Shown: piece after piece, positions 4,320-21,433 of the stretch | Layout: each line of letters opens with the position of its first letter | How positions within the stretch are numbered: position 1 is the stretch's first letter | From: a virus | Strand: one strand, 5' to 3' | IMG/VR virus record: IMGVR_UViG_3300032326_001222 | Location: 1-22,334 of that record | Length of the DNA: 22,334 nucleotides | Translations under genes and position numbers: made by a program | Notes under the pieces: generated by a model | What the model saw: the letters and a program-made list of their open reading frames with translations, nothing else | What the model was told of the DNA's origin: nothing | Databases searched by the model: none

Positions 4320-6144
4320 AGTAACCTTAGAACTGGATACCAAACCCTTTATAGATGGTTTGAAAAAGGCAGAACAAGCCAGCAATAGTTTTGGTAATGC
4401 GTTTGCAACCAACAATCAAAAAGCCAATCAAAGTTTTGGAGCACTGCAAGGATCTTTAGCACAATTTACCAAACTGTTGGGAGTAGGAGCATTGATTGCC
4501 TACAGCAAAAATGTGATAGGCATAGGAGATTCCATCAATGATCTCAGTGAAGCCACAGGTTTTGGAGTGGCAGGCATTGTGGGATTACAGAACGCATTGG
4601 CCACCAGTGGAGGCACAGCAGAATCAGCAGGCAGTCTACTAACCAAATTCAGTCAAACCTTGGATGATGTGGCACAAGGCAGTGACAAAGCATTGAGTCA
4701 ATTTGAAAGAGTTGGTTTAAGTTTAAATGATATCAAAGGAGCCACACCTGAACAAGTGTTTCAAAAAGTGGCAGAGCAGTTGGCCAAGATGCCAGCCAGT
4801 GCAGAAAAAACAGCACTGCAAATGGAATTATTTGGTAAAGCAGCCAAAGGTCTAGCCATCAATGAACAATTCATAGAAAATTTAAGAAAATCTCAAGAAA
4901 GAGCAGAACAGTTTTCAAGTGCCATTTCCACAGCAGGCAAATTTGTAGATACTGTGAGCAACTCAGTACAAGATTTAGGTTTAAGATTTTTGGCTGTGTT
5001 GGAACCTGTATTACAATTAGTTTTAGATTTGGGTAAAACATTCAGCAATCTAGATAAAATTGTTAAAGAAGTAACCAAAGGTATGTATGGTTTGGCAGAC
5101 GCTGTACAAGCAGTGGTCAGTGCCGCACTGCTTTTCTTCCCCATAGGTAAAGGTTTGCAATTACTGCAAAGAGGATTGGGAGCATTGGGATTATTGGATG
5201 TGGGCAAAAAAATGGCCAAAGGTTTAGATGAAGCAGATGATGCTCAAAAAAATTTAAACAAGAGCACCAAAGAAACTGTAGGGGCTACCACAATACAAAC
5301 TCAAGCCAATAAAGATTTACTTGCAACTTTAGAAAAAATTACCACAGAATATAGAAATCAGAATAAAGAACAAATAGATTCTTTAAGAGCTGAAACAAAA
5401 CTTTTGGGTTTGTCAGACGAAGAGCAAGAAATACAAAAAAAATTATTGCAATTTCAAAATCAAGAAAAGAAATTATTAGAATCTTTGGAAGATAAGAAAA
5501 GAACAGCTAGAGGTGAAAACCTAAAAGCAGTTGAAGAAGAAATAGCAAAATTTAAAGCAGGTCAAGAAGGAAGAACCAAAACATATGAAGAAGAATTAAG
5601 AAAAAGACAAGAAGCAGAAAGAAGTTTCAGCACAGGATTCAGTAATGCAATGGAAAATTACATATCTGATGCAACCAATGCCGCAAGGATTGCCAGAGAA
5701 GTGTTTGAAACTGCCACCAAAGGCATGGAAGATTCCATTACCAAATTTGTAAAAACTGGCAAACTAAGTTTCAAATCATTGATTGCTGACATTTTAGAAA
5801 CCATACTACGCAGTCAAATACAAGCCATTGTGGCACAGATATTCAGCATAGGTAGAAATGCTGGAGGACAGATTGGTAAAGTTTTGGGCATACCAGGATT
5901 TGCCAATGGAGGTATGATACCCAATAATGGTCCAGTATTGGTAGGAGAACGTGGTCCAGAAATTATATCAGGTGCCGCAGGTAGAATGGTCACTCCTAAC
6001 AATCAATTGGGTGGTGGCACAGTCACATATTACATCAATGCAGTGGATGCCATGAGTTTCAAACAATTGGTGGCACAGGATCCACAATTCATTTATGCAC
6101 TAACAGAACAAGGGCGCAGAAGTGTGCCTCAAACAAGGAGATAA
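4303..6144 (+). CDS. Tape measure protein (lambda gpH-like)
   Basis: A 613-residue protein starting at GTG 4303 inside the preceding gene. Residues 1-30 form an N-terminal beta/helix cap (IRVTLELDTKPFIDGLKKAEQ). Residues about 60-200 look like the tape-measure core, with the phrase 'ELFGKAAKGL'. A hydrophobic stretch lies at about 265-295 (membrane or channel segment), and a long Glu/Lys/Gln coiled coil at 340-440. Residues 445-515 plus the Gly/Pro motif 'FANGGMIPNNGPVLVGERGPEII' at 533-555 are typical of the C-terminal part of lambda-family tape measures. It fixes tail length and helps DNA passage. At about 1.5 angstrom per residue it predicts a tail near 90 nm (inference). Confidence 0.88.
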   Translation: MARSIRVTLELDTKPFIDGLKKAEQASNSFGNAFATNNQKANQSFGALQGSLAQFTKLLGVGALIAYSKNVIGIGDSINDLSEATGFGVAGIVGLQNALATSGGTAESAGSLLTKFSQTLDDVAQGSDKALSQFERVGLSLNDIKGATPEQVFQKVAEQLAKMPASAEKTALQMELFGKAAKGLAINEQFIENLRKSQERAEQFSSAISTAGKFVDTVSNSVQDLGLRFLAVLEPVLQLVLDLGKTFSNLDKIVKEVTKGMYGLADAVQAVVSAALLFFPIGKGLQLLQRGLGALGLLDVGKKMAKGLDEADDAQKNLNKSTKETVGATTIQTQANKDLLATLEKITTEYRNQNKEQIDSLRAETKLLGLSDEEQEIQKKLLQFQNQEKKLLESLEDKKRTARGENLKAVEEEIAKFKAGQEGRTKTYEEELRKRQEAERSFSTGFSNAMENYISDATNAARIAREVFETATKGMEDSITKFVKTGKLSFKSLIADILETILRSQIQAIVAQIFSIGRNAGGQIGKVLGIPGFANGGMIPNNGPVLVGERGPEIISGAAGRMVTPNNQLGGGTVTYYINAVDAMSFKQLVAQDPQFIYALTEQGRRSVPQTRR

Positions 6145-8102: not shown

Positions 8103-10999
8103 TGGACAGTTTAACCACACTCAACACATATTCAGCCACATCCGTACCCTACACAGATGAAGCGGCAGGCGCAGCCACACTCACCAATCGTTATCAAATC
8201 AATGGAGTGATAGACACTGCACTGCCAGTGATGGAGAATTTGGAAAAGATCAGTTCAGCCGCAGGCAGTTGGCTCAGCTATGATGTGAGCACAGGCAAAT
8301 GGGGAGTAGTGATCAACAGAACTGGATCTTCAGTGGCCTCATTCAACAACAGCAACATTTTGGGTCCAATCAGTGTGAGCGGCACAGGATTGAAAGATTT
8401 ATACAATGCTGTGAGAGTGGAATTTCCCAACAGAGACATCAGAGATGCCAGCGATTTTGTCAAAATAGAATTGCCTGCAGGTGAAAAAAATGCCAATGAA
8501 TTGCCCAACACATTAAATTTGGCCTATGACAACATCAATGAACCAGTTCAAGCACAACTGTTGGGATTTATAGAATTAAAACAGAGCAGAGTGGATCTGT
8601 TGATCACATTTGAAACAGATTACAGCAACATCAATCTACAAGCAGGTGACATCATAGATGTGACCAACAGTCAATTTGGTTTCAGTGCCAAATTGTTTAG
8701 AATTATCTCCATTGCTGAACGTCAAGGAGATTCAGCCATCACCATTGAGATCACGGCATTGGAATATGACAGCACAGTGTACAGCACAGCAGATCTCAGC
8801 AGATTTGTGCGTAGTGACAGCACAGGTATCATAACCATAGGCAGTATTGGCACACCAGGCACACCAGTGGTGACCAAATATGAAAGAGACAGCAGACCAA
8901 GAATTGTTGTGACCAGCACAGCACCCACAGGCATTGTGGAGGCCATGGAATTTTGGAGAACCACAGATGTACTGTTGGCAGAAAGTGCCAGAAGTTATCA
9001 ACAGATTGGCACACAGAGACCCACAGGTGGTGGCACTTATTCCAGTGGAGACACAGTTACCTTTGAATTGGACACATTGAATGCCAGCGATTTCTTTATC
9101 AAAACCAGAGGCATCAATGATCTCACAGTGGGTCAATTCAGCACACCATCAGGATTGGTGGAATATGTGCCAGAACAAACCACAGATGCCATAGATCCCA
9201 ATACCAATATCAGAGACGCATTGGGCGCCATTGTCACAGCACAATCTTTGTTCACATTATTAAATTTATTGGATGATCTGTTGGCAGGTATCACAGGCAA
9301 AAGCATTTGGGATCGTATCAAAGATTTATTTCAAGAAGCCACAGGCATTGATATCAACACTGGAGGAGCCATACAGGCAGCCAGTGCTATCACTATCAGT
9401 GATGAAGGAGTATTAAAAACCAATCAACTGACCAGCATTAACTTTGTGGGTTCAGGTGTCACAGTGACCAACACAGGCGGTGCTGTGACTGCTACCATCA
9501 CAGGTGGTGCAGGATCAGGATTAAGTGTGGTAAACACTCCAGAAGAAAGTGACACAGTGGCCTGGAATGGCACAGCATGGGTGGCAGTGGAACCTTGTTG
9601 TCCCATCACTTGGCCCACAGGCTATGCTCCAGGTTATGTGCCTCCCACACCCACTTGCTATTTGACTTTCAATACCAGATATCCACCAGACAGAACCACA
9701 CAGGTGGATCCATTAACAGGAGCCAGCAGTGATTTGGCACCTATCACAGGCAACTATTATTTGGTCATGGGTGCAGGTGGTGCTACCACATTTCATGGAC
9801 CAGTTTCAGCAGGATCAGGTGATATCAAACTGTACAAATCAGATGGCACATTGGTAGAAACCAAAACAGCCAGTCAATTAACATTTGATAAAAATGTGGT
9901 ATCAATTCCATTCAGCACCAGATCATTGAAAACAGATTATTACATCACCATGGATGAGGGTGTGATTGCATATTGTTCTTGCGTTTCACCTGCCATCACA
10001 GCTACCACAGGATCAGGAGCTTGGAACTTTAATACTCCAGCATACTCCACCACTGCATACACAGTCACAGGCAGTGACTTTACTGCACCAAATTCAACTG
10101 TACCCACAGTGAGTTCATATGCACCATCAGGTGCAAACGTGTGTCCCAATGGAGATTTGACCATCACTTGGAACACCACTGTGTTAAAAAATGTGGGCAA
10201 TATCTATATCAAAAGATTCAGCGATGATGCCACTGCACAGACCATTGATGCCAGCACTGCCACAGGATCTGGTGCCACATTAAACTATGGTGCATTGAGT
10301 GCATTGGCCAGCAACACACAATATTATATTCAAGCAGATGCAGGCATTGTGAAAAGCAACAATGGTGATTGCTTTCAACAGGCAGTATCAGCTGCCATTA
10401 CCAAAGCCAGCAACAGAACATTTACCACTTATGCTGGATTGAGCATTATTGGTTTTGTGGTGGATTCAGATCCTCCCATTGCCAGCGATCCCACACGTCA
10501 AAAAGTAAATCCTCAGAGCAACATTGGAATTCAATTCAACAGAAGTATTGATTTGCACAGCACAGGCACAATCACATTGAACAGCAGTGCTGGTGTGCAT
10601 CAGACATTTGATGTGTCAGACATTTGGAACACAGACAAAGTGAGTGAATTGATTTGGATCAGTGGTGGTGACACATTGTACATCAATCCAACCACAGACA
10701 TGAGTTTGGATGTGACATATTGGGTGTTGTTGAGTGCAGGTTGTGTGAAGGATGCCTGCAACACAGTGTTCGCAGGACTAAGTGATGTAAATACCGTAAG
10801 ATTCAAAACAGATGCAGGACCAGTCAGCAGTACACCTACATTTGATGGATCAGGCAGTGTGAACCAAACAGGCATAGTGATGAATTTTGATAGAACAGTG
10901 GAGCCCAGCACAGGACTGGTAAGAATATTTGACGCCAGCAACAATTTAATTGCCACAGTGGATGCCACAGATCCATCAGTGAGCATAACAGAGGTTTAA
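8102..10999 (+). CDS. Tail tip/adhesin, J-like central part with SbsA-type Ig domains
   Basis: A 965-residue protein. Residues 1-230 continue the J-like hub ('TLTNRYQINGVIDT', 'AAGSWLSYDVSTGKWGVV', 'LQAGDIIDVTNSQFGF'). 250-360 look like a fibronectin/Ig-type domain, and 370-420 contain a helical pair. 425-500 are a Gly/Thr segment with the fibre phrase 'DTVAWNGTAWV'. From about 520 onward are Big_5 (SbsA) Ig-like domains at about 520-660, 665-777, 783-905 and 909-965. The last is incomplete: it stops after VSITEV, and its second half is in the next frame. ATG 8102 overlaps the previous stop (TAATG), with GGAGGT at 8084-8089 as a possible Shine-Dalgarno. Role: receptor-facing extension of the tail tip. 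Confidence 0.7.
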   Translation: MDSLTTLNTYSATSVPYTDEAAGAATLTNRYQINGVIDTALPVMENLEKISSAAGSWLSYDVSTGKWGVVINRTGSSVASFNNSNILGPISVSGTGLKDLYNAVRVEFPNRDIRDASDFVKIELPAGEKNANELPNTLNLAYDNINEPVQAQLLGFIELKQSRVDLLITFETDYSNINLQAGDIIDVTNSQFGFSAKLFRIISIAERQGDSAITIEITALEYDSTVYSTADLSRFVRSDSTGIITIGSIGTPGTPVVTKYERDSRPRIVVTSTAPTGIVEAMEFWRTTDVLLAESARSYQQIGTQRPTGGGTYSSGDTVTFELDTLNASDFFIKTRGINDLTVGQFSTPSGLVEYVPEQTTDAIDPNTNIRDALGAIVTAQSLFTLLNLLDDLLAGITGKSIWDRIKDLFQEATGIDINTGGAIQAASAITISDEGVLKTNQLTSINFVGSGVTVTNTGGAVTATITGGAGSGLSVVNTPEESDTVAWNGTAWVAVEPCCPITWPTGYAPGYVPPTPTCYLTFNTRYPPDRTTQVDPLTGASSDLAPITGNYYLVMGAGGATTFHGPVSAGSGDIKLYKSDGTLVETKTASQLTFDKNVVSIPFSTRSLKTDYYITMDEGVIAYCSCVSPAITATTGSGAWNFNTPAYSTTAYTVTGSDFTAPNSTVPTVSSYAPSGANVCPNGDLTITWNTTVLKNVGNIYIKRFSDDATAQTIDASTATGSGATLNYGALSALASNTQYYIQADAGIVKSNNGDCFQQAVSAAITKASNRTFTTYAGLSIIGFVVDSDPPIASDPTRQKVNPQSNIGIQFNRSIDLHSTGTITLNSSAGVHQTFDVSDIWNTDKVSELIWISGGDTLYINPTTDMSLDVTYWVLLSAGCVKDACNTVFAGLSDVNTVRFKTDAGPVSSTPTFDGSGSVNQTGIVMNFDRTVEPSTGLVRIFDASNNLIATVDATDPSVSITEV

Positions 11000-19352: not shown

Positions 19353-19805
19353 ATGAAGAAACCACTCACCCGTGAACAAATACGCGAGCATCTTAATCGT
19401 TTGGCCATCATGAAGGATGTCAAAATCAACAAAACCATCAATCCCACTGTGCCACCAGTGCTACGCAAAATCCTACAAACCAAAAAACGCTGTGAAGATT
19501 GCCCACGCATTGTGAAAAACCGTGTGATAGAAGCTCATGTGGTGTTCTATCCTGTGAGACATTGGTTGCAAAAATGCAACAAATGTGATGCTCATTTTAA
19601 TCATCGCACAGGTCGCTATGAACTCAGCTGGCAGACAGCACACAGTCAAACACTCACAGATATTGGTTATCACAAAATGCAAAAACGCTTGGACACCAAA
19701 AAACCTTTGACCCTAGAACAACAGCGGGATCTACAACTGTATCGCAATCAATTGCAGAGTCAACGAGCCAAGATTCAACTCAAATCAAAAAAAGAAGATA
19801 AATAA
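19353..19805 (+). CDS. Zinc-ribbon protein of unknown function
   Basis: A 150-residue basic protein. ATG 19353 is chosen over the longer TTG start at 19305, which overlaps the TM segment of the previous gene. Cysteine pairs CEDC (about residue 46) and CNKC (about residue 75) are separated by about 25 residues, a typical zinc-ribbon spacing, with nearby His and Arg ('RHWLQKCNKCDAHFNHRTGRYELSW'). The C-terminal third is a Gln/Lys/Arg helix ('LTLEQQRDLQLYRNQLQSQRAKIQLKSKKEDK'). It could bind nucleic acid, but the family is not recognised. It is the last gene before the non-coding region, and its final codons overlap an ATAAATA motif. Confidence 0.6.
   Translation: MKKPLTREQIREHLNRLAIMKDVKINKTINPTVPPVLRKILQTKKRCEDCPRIVKNRVIEAHVVFYPVRHWLQKCNKCDAHFNHRTGRYELSWQTAHSQTLTDIGYHKMQKRLDTKKPLTLEQQRDLQLYRNQLQSQRAKIQLKSKKEDK
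19797..19805 (+). promoter_or_regulatory. ATAAATA promoter-like element at the start of the non-coding region
   Basis: GATAAATAA (ATAAATA at 19798-19804) overlaps the stop of the zinc-ribbon gene. About 10 bases later the RNA could fold with TGAGA (19814-19818) against TCTCA (19855-19859) and GTGA (19820-19823) against TCAC (19845-19848). A promoter for a non-coding transcript is inferred. Confidence 0.35.
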
Positions 19806-19905
19806 TACTGCCCTGAGAAGTGATGAATGGTTGGGATAAGGCTGTCACCTTTCCTCTCAATTCTCCTAGAAAAGCACACTTGTGTCCTCTCAATGGGTTT
19901 TTAAA

Positions 19906-20007
19906 ATGGAGTGCGATGAGCAATCTGACCGCTATGATATTTTGGAAACACGCTGGCATACACAAGAAGACTATCACTACCTCCTATATGACATAGCCAT
20001 ATGTTAA
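19906..20007 (+). CDS. Possible 33-residue ORF
   Basis: ATG 19906 opens a frame of 33 codons encoding an acidic, Tyr-rich peptide starting MECDEQSDRYDIL and ending YDIAIC. Composition looks more protein-like than chance, but there is no Shine-Dalgarno and no known family. The surroundings are non-coding, so it is listed with low confidence. Confidence 0.2.
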   Translation: MECDEQSDRYDILETRWHTQEDYHYLLYDIAIC

Positions 20008-20077
20008 GTTCCTTGCTTTTTGAACACCCCTTGGGGCAACCGCAAACCAAGATTAAACTCCCCACAACTGAACCTGA

Positions 20078-20088
20078 ATAAATAAATA
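20078..20088 (+). promoter_or_regulatory. Overlapping double ATAAATA element
   Basis: ATAAATAAATA contains two overlapping copies of the late-promoter-like motif (20078-20084 and 20082-20088). It lies 53 bases before the stem-closed element at 20141-20211 and has no gene close downstream, so it may drive a non-coding RNA. Confidence 0.35.
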
Positions 20089-20140
20089 TATCAAGGCTCA
20101 TATAGGCAACCCATACATTCTGAAACAACTGCACACAAGA

Positions 20141-20211
20141 GTTTAGATCACTCTCTGAATTGATCAGCTATGGTTGTACCGCGTCACAGTTAGGCGTCTG
20201 ACTGTCTAAAC
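20141..20211 (+). ncRNA. 71-base junction-type structured RNA candidate
   Basis: GTTTAG (20141-20146) pairs with CTAAAC (20206-20211), closing a domain with two inner hairpins: GATCA (20146-20150) with TGATC (20161-20165), and ACAGTTAG (20187-20194) with CTGACTGT (20198-20205, one T/G wobble). The last hairpin would stack directly on the closing stem. The size is like a tRNA, but the T-loop consensus is absent and the D-arm does not fit. The base shared at 20146 means the first inner hairpin may lose one pair. Confidence 0.4.
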
Positions 20212-20227
20212 AAATGAGCAGTGATGT

Positions 20228-20256
20228 TGATGCACTTTGGAAACTTTTGTGCATCA
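20228..20256 (+). repeat. 8-bp inverted repeat (stem-loop)
   Basis: TGATGCAC (20228-20235) and GTGCATCA (20249-20256) are perfectly complementary around a 13-base loop. It is one of a consecutive series of stem-loops in the non-coding region, only 2 bases before the next one. Confidence 0.55.
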
Positions 20257-20258
20257 TA

Positions 20259-20308
20259 CTTTTTACACTATGACTTCAAGTTCAGCAACTCACCTGCTGT
20301 GTAAAAAG
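20259..20308 (+). repeat. 10-bp inverted repeat with inner hairpin
   Basis: CTTTTTACAC (20259-20268) and GTGTAAAAAG (20299-20308) pair perfectly. Inside, CAGC (20283-20286) can pair with GCTG (20296-20299) at the base of the stem, sharing one base with the outer helix. The T/A ends resemble a bidirectional terminator, but the 30-base loop is long for one. Confidence 0.55.
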
Positions 20309-20387
20309 ACGGAAGTGGTCTCCCTAAACAGGTTGGTTAGATATGCAAACCCTTAACCATAATAGATTGATGCAGTGAGTCTCTAAG

Positions 20388-20422
20388 AGAGAACTTTGGT
20401 ATTATTTTACTAAAAGTTCTCT
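20388..20422 (+). repeat. 10-bp inverted repeat (stem-loop)
   Basis: AGAGAACTTT (20388-20397) and AAAGTTCTCT (20413-20422) pair perfectly around a 15-base A/T-rich loop. The left arm can alternatively pair with the adjacent CTCT at 20381-20384, giving a possible switch between two folds. Confidence 0.55.
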
Positions 20423-20469
20423 TGTTTCAAAGGCAAGGGAGGAAGAGGAAACAAAAAAGATATCAAAAC

Positions 20470-20491
20470 AAAAACTTCGCAAGAAGTTTTT
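20470..20491 (+). terminator. Bidirectional terminator-like hairpin with GCAA tetraloop
   Basis: AAAAACTTC (20470-20478) pairs with GAAGTTTTT (20483-20491) around the GNRA loop GCAA. The A tract before and T5 at the end give the layout of an intrinsic terminator readable on both strands, though the stem has only three G/C pairs. It would end transcripts crossing the stem-loop region. Confidence 0.6.
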
Positions 20492-20492
20492 A

Positions 20493-20513
20493 ATACGAGC
20501 GTTTAGCTCGTAT
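20493..20513 (+). repeat. Second tandem hairpin
   Basis: ATACGAGC (20493-20500) and GCTCGTAT (20506-20513) are perfect inverted repeats with the loop GTTTA. It begins one base after the previous hairpin, so the two could stack. No U tract follows, so it probably reinforces the preceding terminator or binds a protein. Confidence 0.6.
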
Positions 20514-20554
20514 TCATTCAATCACTCAGAATAATCAAAATAGTTCTGACTCAC

Positions 20555-20584
20555 TTGACACAATAATCTATCAGAAAGTATAAT
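20555..20584 (+). promoter_or_regulatory. Consensus sigma70 promoter (TTGACA-18-TATAAT)
   Basis: TTGACA (20555-20560) and TATAAT (20579-20584) match both consensus hexamers exactly, with an 18-base spacer. Initiation 6-8 bases after the -10 would fall on or next to the ATG at 20590, predicting a leaderless message. It is the only full-consensus host-type promoter noticed in the window and suggests early expression by host RNA polymerase. Confidence 0.8.
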
Positions 20585-20589
20585 ACACT

Positions 20590-20834: not shown

Positions 20835-20843
20835 CATAAATAT
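20835..20843 (+). promoter_or_regulatory. ATAAATA late-promoter-like element upstream of TerS
   Basis: CATAAATAT (ATAAATA at 20836-20842) lies in the 175-base gap before the small terminase gene. Expected initiation near 20848 coincides with the first base of the structured leader at 20848-20907. A weaker CTAAATAAT follows at 20919-20927. Confidence 0.45.
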
Positions 20844-20847
20844 CCAG

Positions 20848-20907
20848 CACTCACTGTCGCACATGATGCGAGGTAGTTTCTTGCCATTCTACCTTCCACA
20901 ATGAGTG
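20848..20907 (+). ncRNA. Structured leader (three-way junction) upstream of TerS
   Basis: CACTCACTGT (20848-20857) pairs with ACAATGAGTG (20898-20907) with one C/A mismatch. Inside are two hairpins: CGCA (20858-20861) with TGCG (20867-20870), loop CATGA region, and AGGTAG (20871-20876) with CTACCT (20889-20894). The parts abut almost without spacers, the look of a compact junction. It could be a 5' UTR element controlling terminase, a small RNA, or part of a packaging site next to TerS. Confidence 0.45.
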
Positions 20908-20974
20908 TGTGAATCAGACTAAATAATCATACTCAATCAACAGAGGCAGAGCAACATAAGCTCGTAAAGCAATT

Positions 20975-21433
20975 ATGGTCAAACACGCAGACGACTTGCA
21001 CACTCCTGGCAAAACAGGACCCAAACCCAAACAATTGGAACCCATCACACACAAGCAGGGTATTGCTGTGGGTCGTGACAATCTGGTGATAGATCCCCAG
21101 GACATTCAGAAGCTTGCCGCTTTGGGGTGCAATCTCAAAGAAATCTCAGACTTTTTTGGTGCCAAACCAGACACCATCAAACGCAATTTTGCGGATTATA
21201 TACAAAAAGGACAATCTGAGCTGAACATCAGTCTAAGACGTGCCATGATCCATAATGCCACACAGAACATGAATGCCACCATACAGATTTGGCTGAGCAA
21301 AAATATGTTGGGCATGAAGGATGAGCCCACACAATCAGATGATCAGAAACCCTTGCCTTGGGTGGAACGCAAACTCCCACAGGAGGCCACAGCACAAATT
21401 GGCAAAACAAGTGATTTACAAATCAAAGTATAA
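20975..21433 (+). CDS. terS: Terminase small subunit
   Basis: A 152-residue protein. Residues about 43-75 form a helix-turn-helix of the TerS type ('DIQKLAALGCNLKEISDFFGAKPDTIKRNFADYIQKG'), followed by the characteristic helix 'LRRAMIHNATQNMNATIQIWLSKNMLGMKDEP', where the end W-L-x-K-N-x-L-G-x-K-D is typical of phage TerS proteins. It recognises the packaging site and recruits the large subunit. The C-terminal tail is polar, probably the large-subunit contact. The large subunit itself is not in the window. The gene lies behind a structured non-coding stretch which could contain cos/pac. No strong Shine-Dalgarno is seen before ATG 20975. Confidence 0.8.
   Translation: MVKHADDLHTPGKTGPKPKQLEPITHKQGIAVGRDNLVIDPQDIQKLAALGCNLKEISDFFGAKPDTIKRNFADYIQKGQSELNISLRRAMIHNATQNMNATIQIWLSKNMLGMKDEPTQSDDQKPLPWVERKLPQEATAQIGKTSDLQIKV

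Follow-up and report, generated by a model that had tools for sequence, protein, structure and literature searches.

The window, an IMG/VR virus record of 22,334 bases, probably encodes a free-standing structured non-coding RNA some 400 nt in length, which would be transcribed from the + strand, be late or "moron"-like in character and act in trans. Evolution has preserved the fold of this RNA in at least 17 phages that differ considerably, and the RNA moves between gene contexts as well as between types of phage. Compensatory changes across 17 distinct versions strongly support the structured phage RNA that the initial annotation had raised as one possibility for this locus.

The gene-free gap and the family of relatives

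The late region of the window is siphovirus-like, with genes for the major head protein, the tape measure, the tail and the fibres followed by terS at 20975. Its MCP shares 29-33% identity, over full or nearly full length, with those of four pelagiphages and phage DSL-LC06. The named phages closest to the window, at this low identity, have Pelagibacter and other bacteria of seas or lakes as hosts. The gap at 19806-20589, between the tail and packaging genes, was described as free of any credible gene, and this was borne out by the lack of a conserved reading frame. The accompanying view that stem-loops fill this 0.8-kb gap held for the 3' half (approximately 20095-20515) but not for the first ~290 bases. 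Compared with dinucleotide shuffles, the expected folding excess was present for 20120-20530 (z -2.8, with 1 of 100 shuffles equally good), whereas 19806-20130 showed none (z 0.0). Because this 5' segment folds like its shuffles and is absent from most relatives, we assign the structured RNA to the 3' half of the gap. Its predicted limits are 20095-20515 on the + strand, within 15 bases on either side, based on the onset of the conserved block in relatives (about 20096-20104) and the end of the last conserved hairpin (20515).

A search with terS led to the loci L003 and L007, in which the gap DNA aligns with that of the window and the flanking genes differ. Pattern scans of viral contigs with conserved words brought the additions to 16 distinct versions on 19 other contigs; including the window, the family comprises 20 contigs and 17 distinct core sequences. 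A final wide pattern scan gave no new members, so the set is nearly converged for these words in that collection, and more divergent members may exist. All 17 versions were drawn from this one collection, and several of the siphovirus-side members have a common neighbourhood. The loci L022-L028 and L030-L032 matched the patterns but fall outside the RNA family. No copy was identified by blastn among named phages and plasmids. Using cmsearch, we found no such RNA in DSL-LC06 and HTVC202P, the relatives by MCP, when run without filters, nor in other named phages when run with filters. Two pattern scans of 84,980 prokaryote genomes also yielded none, the first giving 0 matches and the second seven that the covariance model did not support (at most 9.2 bits).

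Covariation and architecture of the RNA

Members were aligned with a covariance model of the core, corresponding to 39 pairs in window positions 20186-20358. With 15 members, 96.5% of helix cells were paired, compared with 77.6% in shuffles, and 27 pairs had changed on both sides. With 17 members, these values were 96.3% and 76.9%, with double changes at 28 of the 39 pairs, and the covariation score of 0.519 (0.171 in shuffles) was reached by none of 500 shuffles. Sliding the partners by 1-3 columns lowered this score to 0.05-0.11. Since an alignment fitted to a structure leans toward that structure, we repeated the count on a structure-blind MAFFT alignment, where 88.6% of cells were paired versus 76.1%, 23 pairs were doubly changed and the score of 0.357 (0.152 in shuffles) was again reached by no shuffle. 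Two held-out loci that were found after model building, L051 and L050, scored 137.5 and 111.1 bits, respectively; in L050 the H4 loop is different and the H4 stem is compensated. Further column pairs that seemed to covary look like the result of relatedness and were set aside. Pairing is thus conserved in relatives. Folding-energy excess was no more than moderate in the window and weak or absent in several of the relatives (mean z -1.1), so energy alone would have missed the RNA.

Helix cells contained G-U rather than A-C combinations at a ratio of 45:9, an excess pointing to the + strand as the RNA, which we regard as supporting evidence alone because that same strand was used to train the model. 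Stops interrupt all three forward frames in 16 of the 16 members examined, and no conserved coding frame was found. With pairing kept and no frame open across members, the product is therefore an RNA of the + strand. A short protein starting near 20215 (MSSDA..FWKLL) was considered and rejected, as it has early stops in L035 and L050, lacks its ATG in L010 and shows invariant third codon positions in the shared stretch.

The predicted fold comprises two 5' elements (H0/H1 and H3), a covarying central domain (H4, and H5 around H6) and, on its 3' side, an H7/H8 unit followed by the long hairpin H9, all on the + strand. The five stems listed in the initial annotation are present where it placed them, as read from the sequence. 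H0 pairs ACAAC (20125-20129) with GTTGT (20173-20177); its arms in relatives include GTATC/GATAC, GCATC/GATGC and GTTAC/GTAAC, and for these hand-chosen arms 98.6% of cells are paired versus 76% in shuffles. Hairpin H1 (20146-20165; GATCA/TGATC) has covarying arms around a fixed loop, CYCTCTGAAT, in a check in which L010 was mis-set by the script and L035 was left out. Hairpin H3 (20186-20205; ACAGT/ACTGT) carries the conserved loop TTAGGC, and its middle pair is A-U, U-A or C-G in 8, 5 and 4 members, respectively. A 71-base junction-like domain had been proposed at 20141-20211. Within it the H1 and H3 hairpins are conserved, as is the H0 stem, and the window does contain a 7-bp closing stem, GTTTAGA/TCTAAAC; this stem is not reliably kept in relatives, being absent from L003, L010, L016, L020 and L035, and we rejected it as a shared feature.

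In the central domain, H4 is an 8-bp hairpin (TGATGCAC/GTGCATCA, 20228-20235/20249-20256) with the loop TTTGGAAACTTTT; all 8 pairs have changed on both sides and 99.3% of cells are paired. The 10-bp helix H5 (CTTTTTACAC/GTGTAAAAAG, 20259-20268/20299-20308) encloses H5a and H6 and shows both-side changes at all 10 pairs, with 96.8% of cells paired. H6 (20284-20298; AGCA/TGCT) has changed on both sides at 4 of 4 pairs, and the small hairpin H5a (20272-20282; GACT/AGTT) is weak, with 72% of cells paired, and is missing from one clade. These helices are followed by a near-invariant single strand, GGAAGTNGTC (20311-20320), found in 15 of 17 members, with GGAAGT in all 17. Hairpin H7 (20323-20332; CCT/AGG), which is longer in L010 and L012, has an invariant core and is for that reason beyond the reach of covariation. 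H8 (20335-20358; GGTTA/TAACC) has the conserved loop GATATGCAAACCCT, both-side changes at 4 of 5 pairs and 100% of cells paired.

The long hairpin H9 (AGAGAACTTT/AAAGTTCTCT, 20388-20397/20413-20422), with its near-invariant 3' arm ACTAAAAGTTCTC, was present in every one of the 16 members in which we looked for it (z between -2.0 and -5.4). A pseudoknot between AACUUUU in the H4 loop and AAAAGUU in H9 was also examined; L035 and L050 speak against it, and both stretches are near-invariant, so that covariation gives no verdict. Further 3' lie H10 (AAAAACTTC/GAAGTTTTT, 20471-20479/20484-20492), a candidate terminator with a T5 tail, and H11 (AATACGAGC/GCTCGTATT, 20493-20501/20507-20515), for which the counterparts are AATACGAAC/GTTCGTATT in L009, GATACGAAC/GTTCGTATC in L019 and CATATGCC/GGCATATG in L012. 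The terminator-like end that had been suggested at 20471-20492 is not shared as a sequence, but some strong 3' hairpin occurs in every member, 23-92 bases past the 20388-20422 stem and with unrelated sequence. We predict that the RNA ends in the hairpins at 20471-20515.

Transcription signals and genomic context

Two ATAAATA elements had been reported in front of the stem-loops. Three lie within the gap or on its border (19798 and the overlapping pair at 20078 and 20082), with another at 20836. The complete set in the window (158, 13530, 18745, 19798, 20078, 20082 and 20836) falls on the coding strand in seven of seven cases and never on the other, with 3.2 expected in all. The four in L021 are likewise all on the + strand, and several of the window words stand before genes. 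We consider them candidates for T4-late-like promoters, here in a genome of siphovirus-like type. The element at 20078-20088 on the + strand, ATAAATAAATA, lies just 5' of the RNA as a putative late promoter core; L003 and L029 have a counterpart equally placed with respect to the core of the RNA, and in the window the transcript probably starts from this element. L012 has a 12/12 sigma-70 promoter with its end at 5287, just 5' of the RNA, whose H0 arm starts at 5299; this favours a transcription unit of its own. A TTGACT-18-TAAAAT site is located ~150 bases 5' of H3 in L016, with similar letters in L020 and L035. Since the window RNA is oriented like both of its neighbours, read-through from late genes is also possible. 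A search for a phage RNA polymerase gave no match, but its control gave none either, so the negative carries no weight.

Two further segments of the window are associated with similar words. At 19796-19868, GATAAATA is followed ~35 bases on by AAGGCTGTCACC, an arrangement also present in L003 and, in a variant form, in L007, L019 and L021; it resembles a distinct, short leader of a late transcript. Directly before terS, a conserved non-coding piece at 20843-20914 comes after CATAAATA at 20835, has a three-way junction fold (z -1.7) and is 89-94% identical in L002, L003 and L029; it is possibly the structured start of a late terS transcript.

The next gene lies on the same strand as the RNA in the window, L003, L007, L009, L010, L012, L021 and L029. 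Together with loops conserved like those that a sensing RNA would keep, this arrangement would suit a cis-acting leader, namely a long 5' UTR controlling the following gene by attenuation, riboswitch-like sensing or translation control. However, the gene that follows differs, being a 69-aa protein in the window, an N6/N4 DNA methylase (PF01555) in L003, an HNH endonuclease in L012 and terS directly in L029, and in L016, L019, L020 and L035 the neighbours have an orientation opposite to that of the RNA. Moreover, the next gene in the window has its own 12/12 sigma-70 promoter (TTGACA-18-TATAAT; 20555-20584, + strand), outside the RNA and past its last hairpin, with a similar arrangement in L009 and L021. 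On this evidence, we consider a cis-acting leader unlikely. Glucosyltransferase and heptosyltransferase-like genes lie downstream of the RNA in L033 and L019, respectively. As a separate observation on the window segment 20555-20799, the -10 box ends about six bases 5' of the ATG of the 69-aa gene, which is probably leaderless given the similar arrangement of its homologues in L009 and L021; the 69-aa protein had no Pfam or PHROG match.

In the window, L003, L007 and L029 the RNA is located between the fibre region and terS, within ~1.4 kb before the latter. This placement favours a packaging element, either pac- or cos-linked DNA or an RNA serving the motor like phi29 pRNA, which has at most 174 nt and is encoded at the genome end of phi29-type phages. 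The family resembles pRNA in being a phage-encoded structured RNA that is sometimes near terS, but it differs in having no Rfam match, to pRNA or otherwise, and no constant tie to packaging genes. In L012, terS is 5.6 kb from the RNA with fibre genes in between; in this locus and in L010 the RNA precedes the fibre genes. The RNA also occurs in T7-like podovirus contigs, which have an unrelated gene order and another packaging arrangement. L034 carries a T7-type head-tail connector (phrog_332, E 1e-66), and the terminase and tail of L016 differ from those of the window. In addition, the constraint is on RNA pairing and not on a DNA word, and the MCP relatives HTVC202P and DSL-LC06 lack the RNA. 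A packaging role is thus very unlikely, and the packaging or replication site beside TerS envisaged in the initial annotation is not borne out, in view of the distance in L012, the opposite-strand neighbours and the T7-like contigs. The presence in both morphotypes, the 5.6-kb separation, the opposite-strand neighbours and the sigma-70 promoter at the 5' end of the L012 RNA argue against a packaging site and a one-gene leader alike.

Between the window and L029, identity is 95-100% up to ~20180 (6660 in L029) and then drops sharply to 62-78% within the core, which appears to be a sign of a recombination breakpoint inside the element. Such a drop, the different cargo genes after the RNA and the adjoining HNH endonuclease (L012; the L010 protein is similar by eye) could also be expected of an element for recombination or transposition with hairpins that work as DNA, in the form of an inverted-repeat mobile element or an exchange joint. 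However, a recombination joint needs no fixed architecture, no G-U-tolerant helices of set length and no near-invariant loops, and an integrase was found in none of the records (the control matched 14 of 14). We regard this explanation as highly improbable. The stand-alone RNA would instead be swapped by phages of different morphotypes in the manner of a moron, by the tail-fibre and packaging region. It resembles morons in its own promoter-like elements, its variable presence and its location by that region beside accessory genes; morons are defined as protein genes, whereas the window unit encodes an RNA.

Comparison with known RNAs and possible mode of action

We compared segments of the window, L016 and L051 (E up to 10) and seven loci (E up to 1) with Rfam by cmscan and obtained no match, including to the GOLLD, ROOL and pRNA covariance models; nothing in the RNA family came near a gathering score. 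Membership of an Rfam family was therefore dismissed, and no description of such an RNA was found in the collection of open-access papers searched. To our knowledge, large structured phage RNAs are few, and the structures of GOLLD and ROOL have been solved with function still unassigned. GOLLD RNA forms a homo-oligomeric nanocage, is often more than 800 nt long and lies by tRNA islands; tRNA genes are often neighbours of ROOL as well. GOLLD has a conserved 3' and a less conserved 5' part, and ROOL is a phage-encoded RNA of elaborate secondary structure with no known protein partner (PMC12286853).

The window RNA and GOLLD are both large structured phage RNAs of unknown function with the same distribution of conservation, and the likeness to ROOL lies in the elaborate phage-encoded fold and the lack of a known protein partner. 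An unrecognised branch of these ornate RNAs, assembling into RNA-only multimers, would fit a large, multi-helix, phage-encoded molecule with no protein partner in sight and a 5' flank that varies as for GOLLD (PMC12286853). At ~400 nt, however, the RNA is roughly half as large as GOLLD, neither family's covariance model matches it at thresholds as lax as E 10, and tRNA genes are present in neither the window nor the 16 other loci. By the features tested it is not a GOLLD or ROOL member, and we consider such a branch quite unlikely; by analogy, the RNA may still work like them.

For the trans-acting RNA, the loops and joints CCCTCTGAT, TTAGGC, TTTGGAAACTTTT, GGAAGTNGTC, GATATGCAAACCC and ACTAAAAGTTCTC are near-fixed while the helix sequences vary freely, and for this reason the loops are likely the working surface. 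Most likely they would attach to a single conserved partner, either a protein or an RNA of the host, or take part in tertiary or intermolecular interactions, with the RNA acting in trans during infection. As the RNA stays the same across phages that differ, the simplest assumption is a partner on the host side. We tentatively suggest a new functional class of phage RNA, an RNA machine or scaffold, for example a blocker of host defence or a binder of a host RNA-protein complex, that has spread among unrelated phages sharing a host target. The family is compact, with a clear covarying architecture, near-invariant loops and carriers of different morphotypes. The fixed loops identify the nucleotides to mutate, and the occurrence of the family in several phage types points to a conserved target in the host; what such RNAs do can thus be tested on a far smaller molecule.

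Two other loci contained features of separate interest. In L045 (phage DSL-LC06), positions 573-1327 form a 755-base gap without genes between the tail and packaging genes; it begins with TATATACATTATAGGCA, has a strong terminator at its end and does not match the window RNA model, and may hold a different RNA. In L049 (Microcystis phage Mae-JY09), positions 9698-9762 match the Rfam family int-alpA with 37.8 bits, against a cut-off of 35.8.
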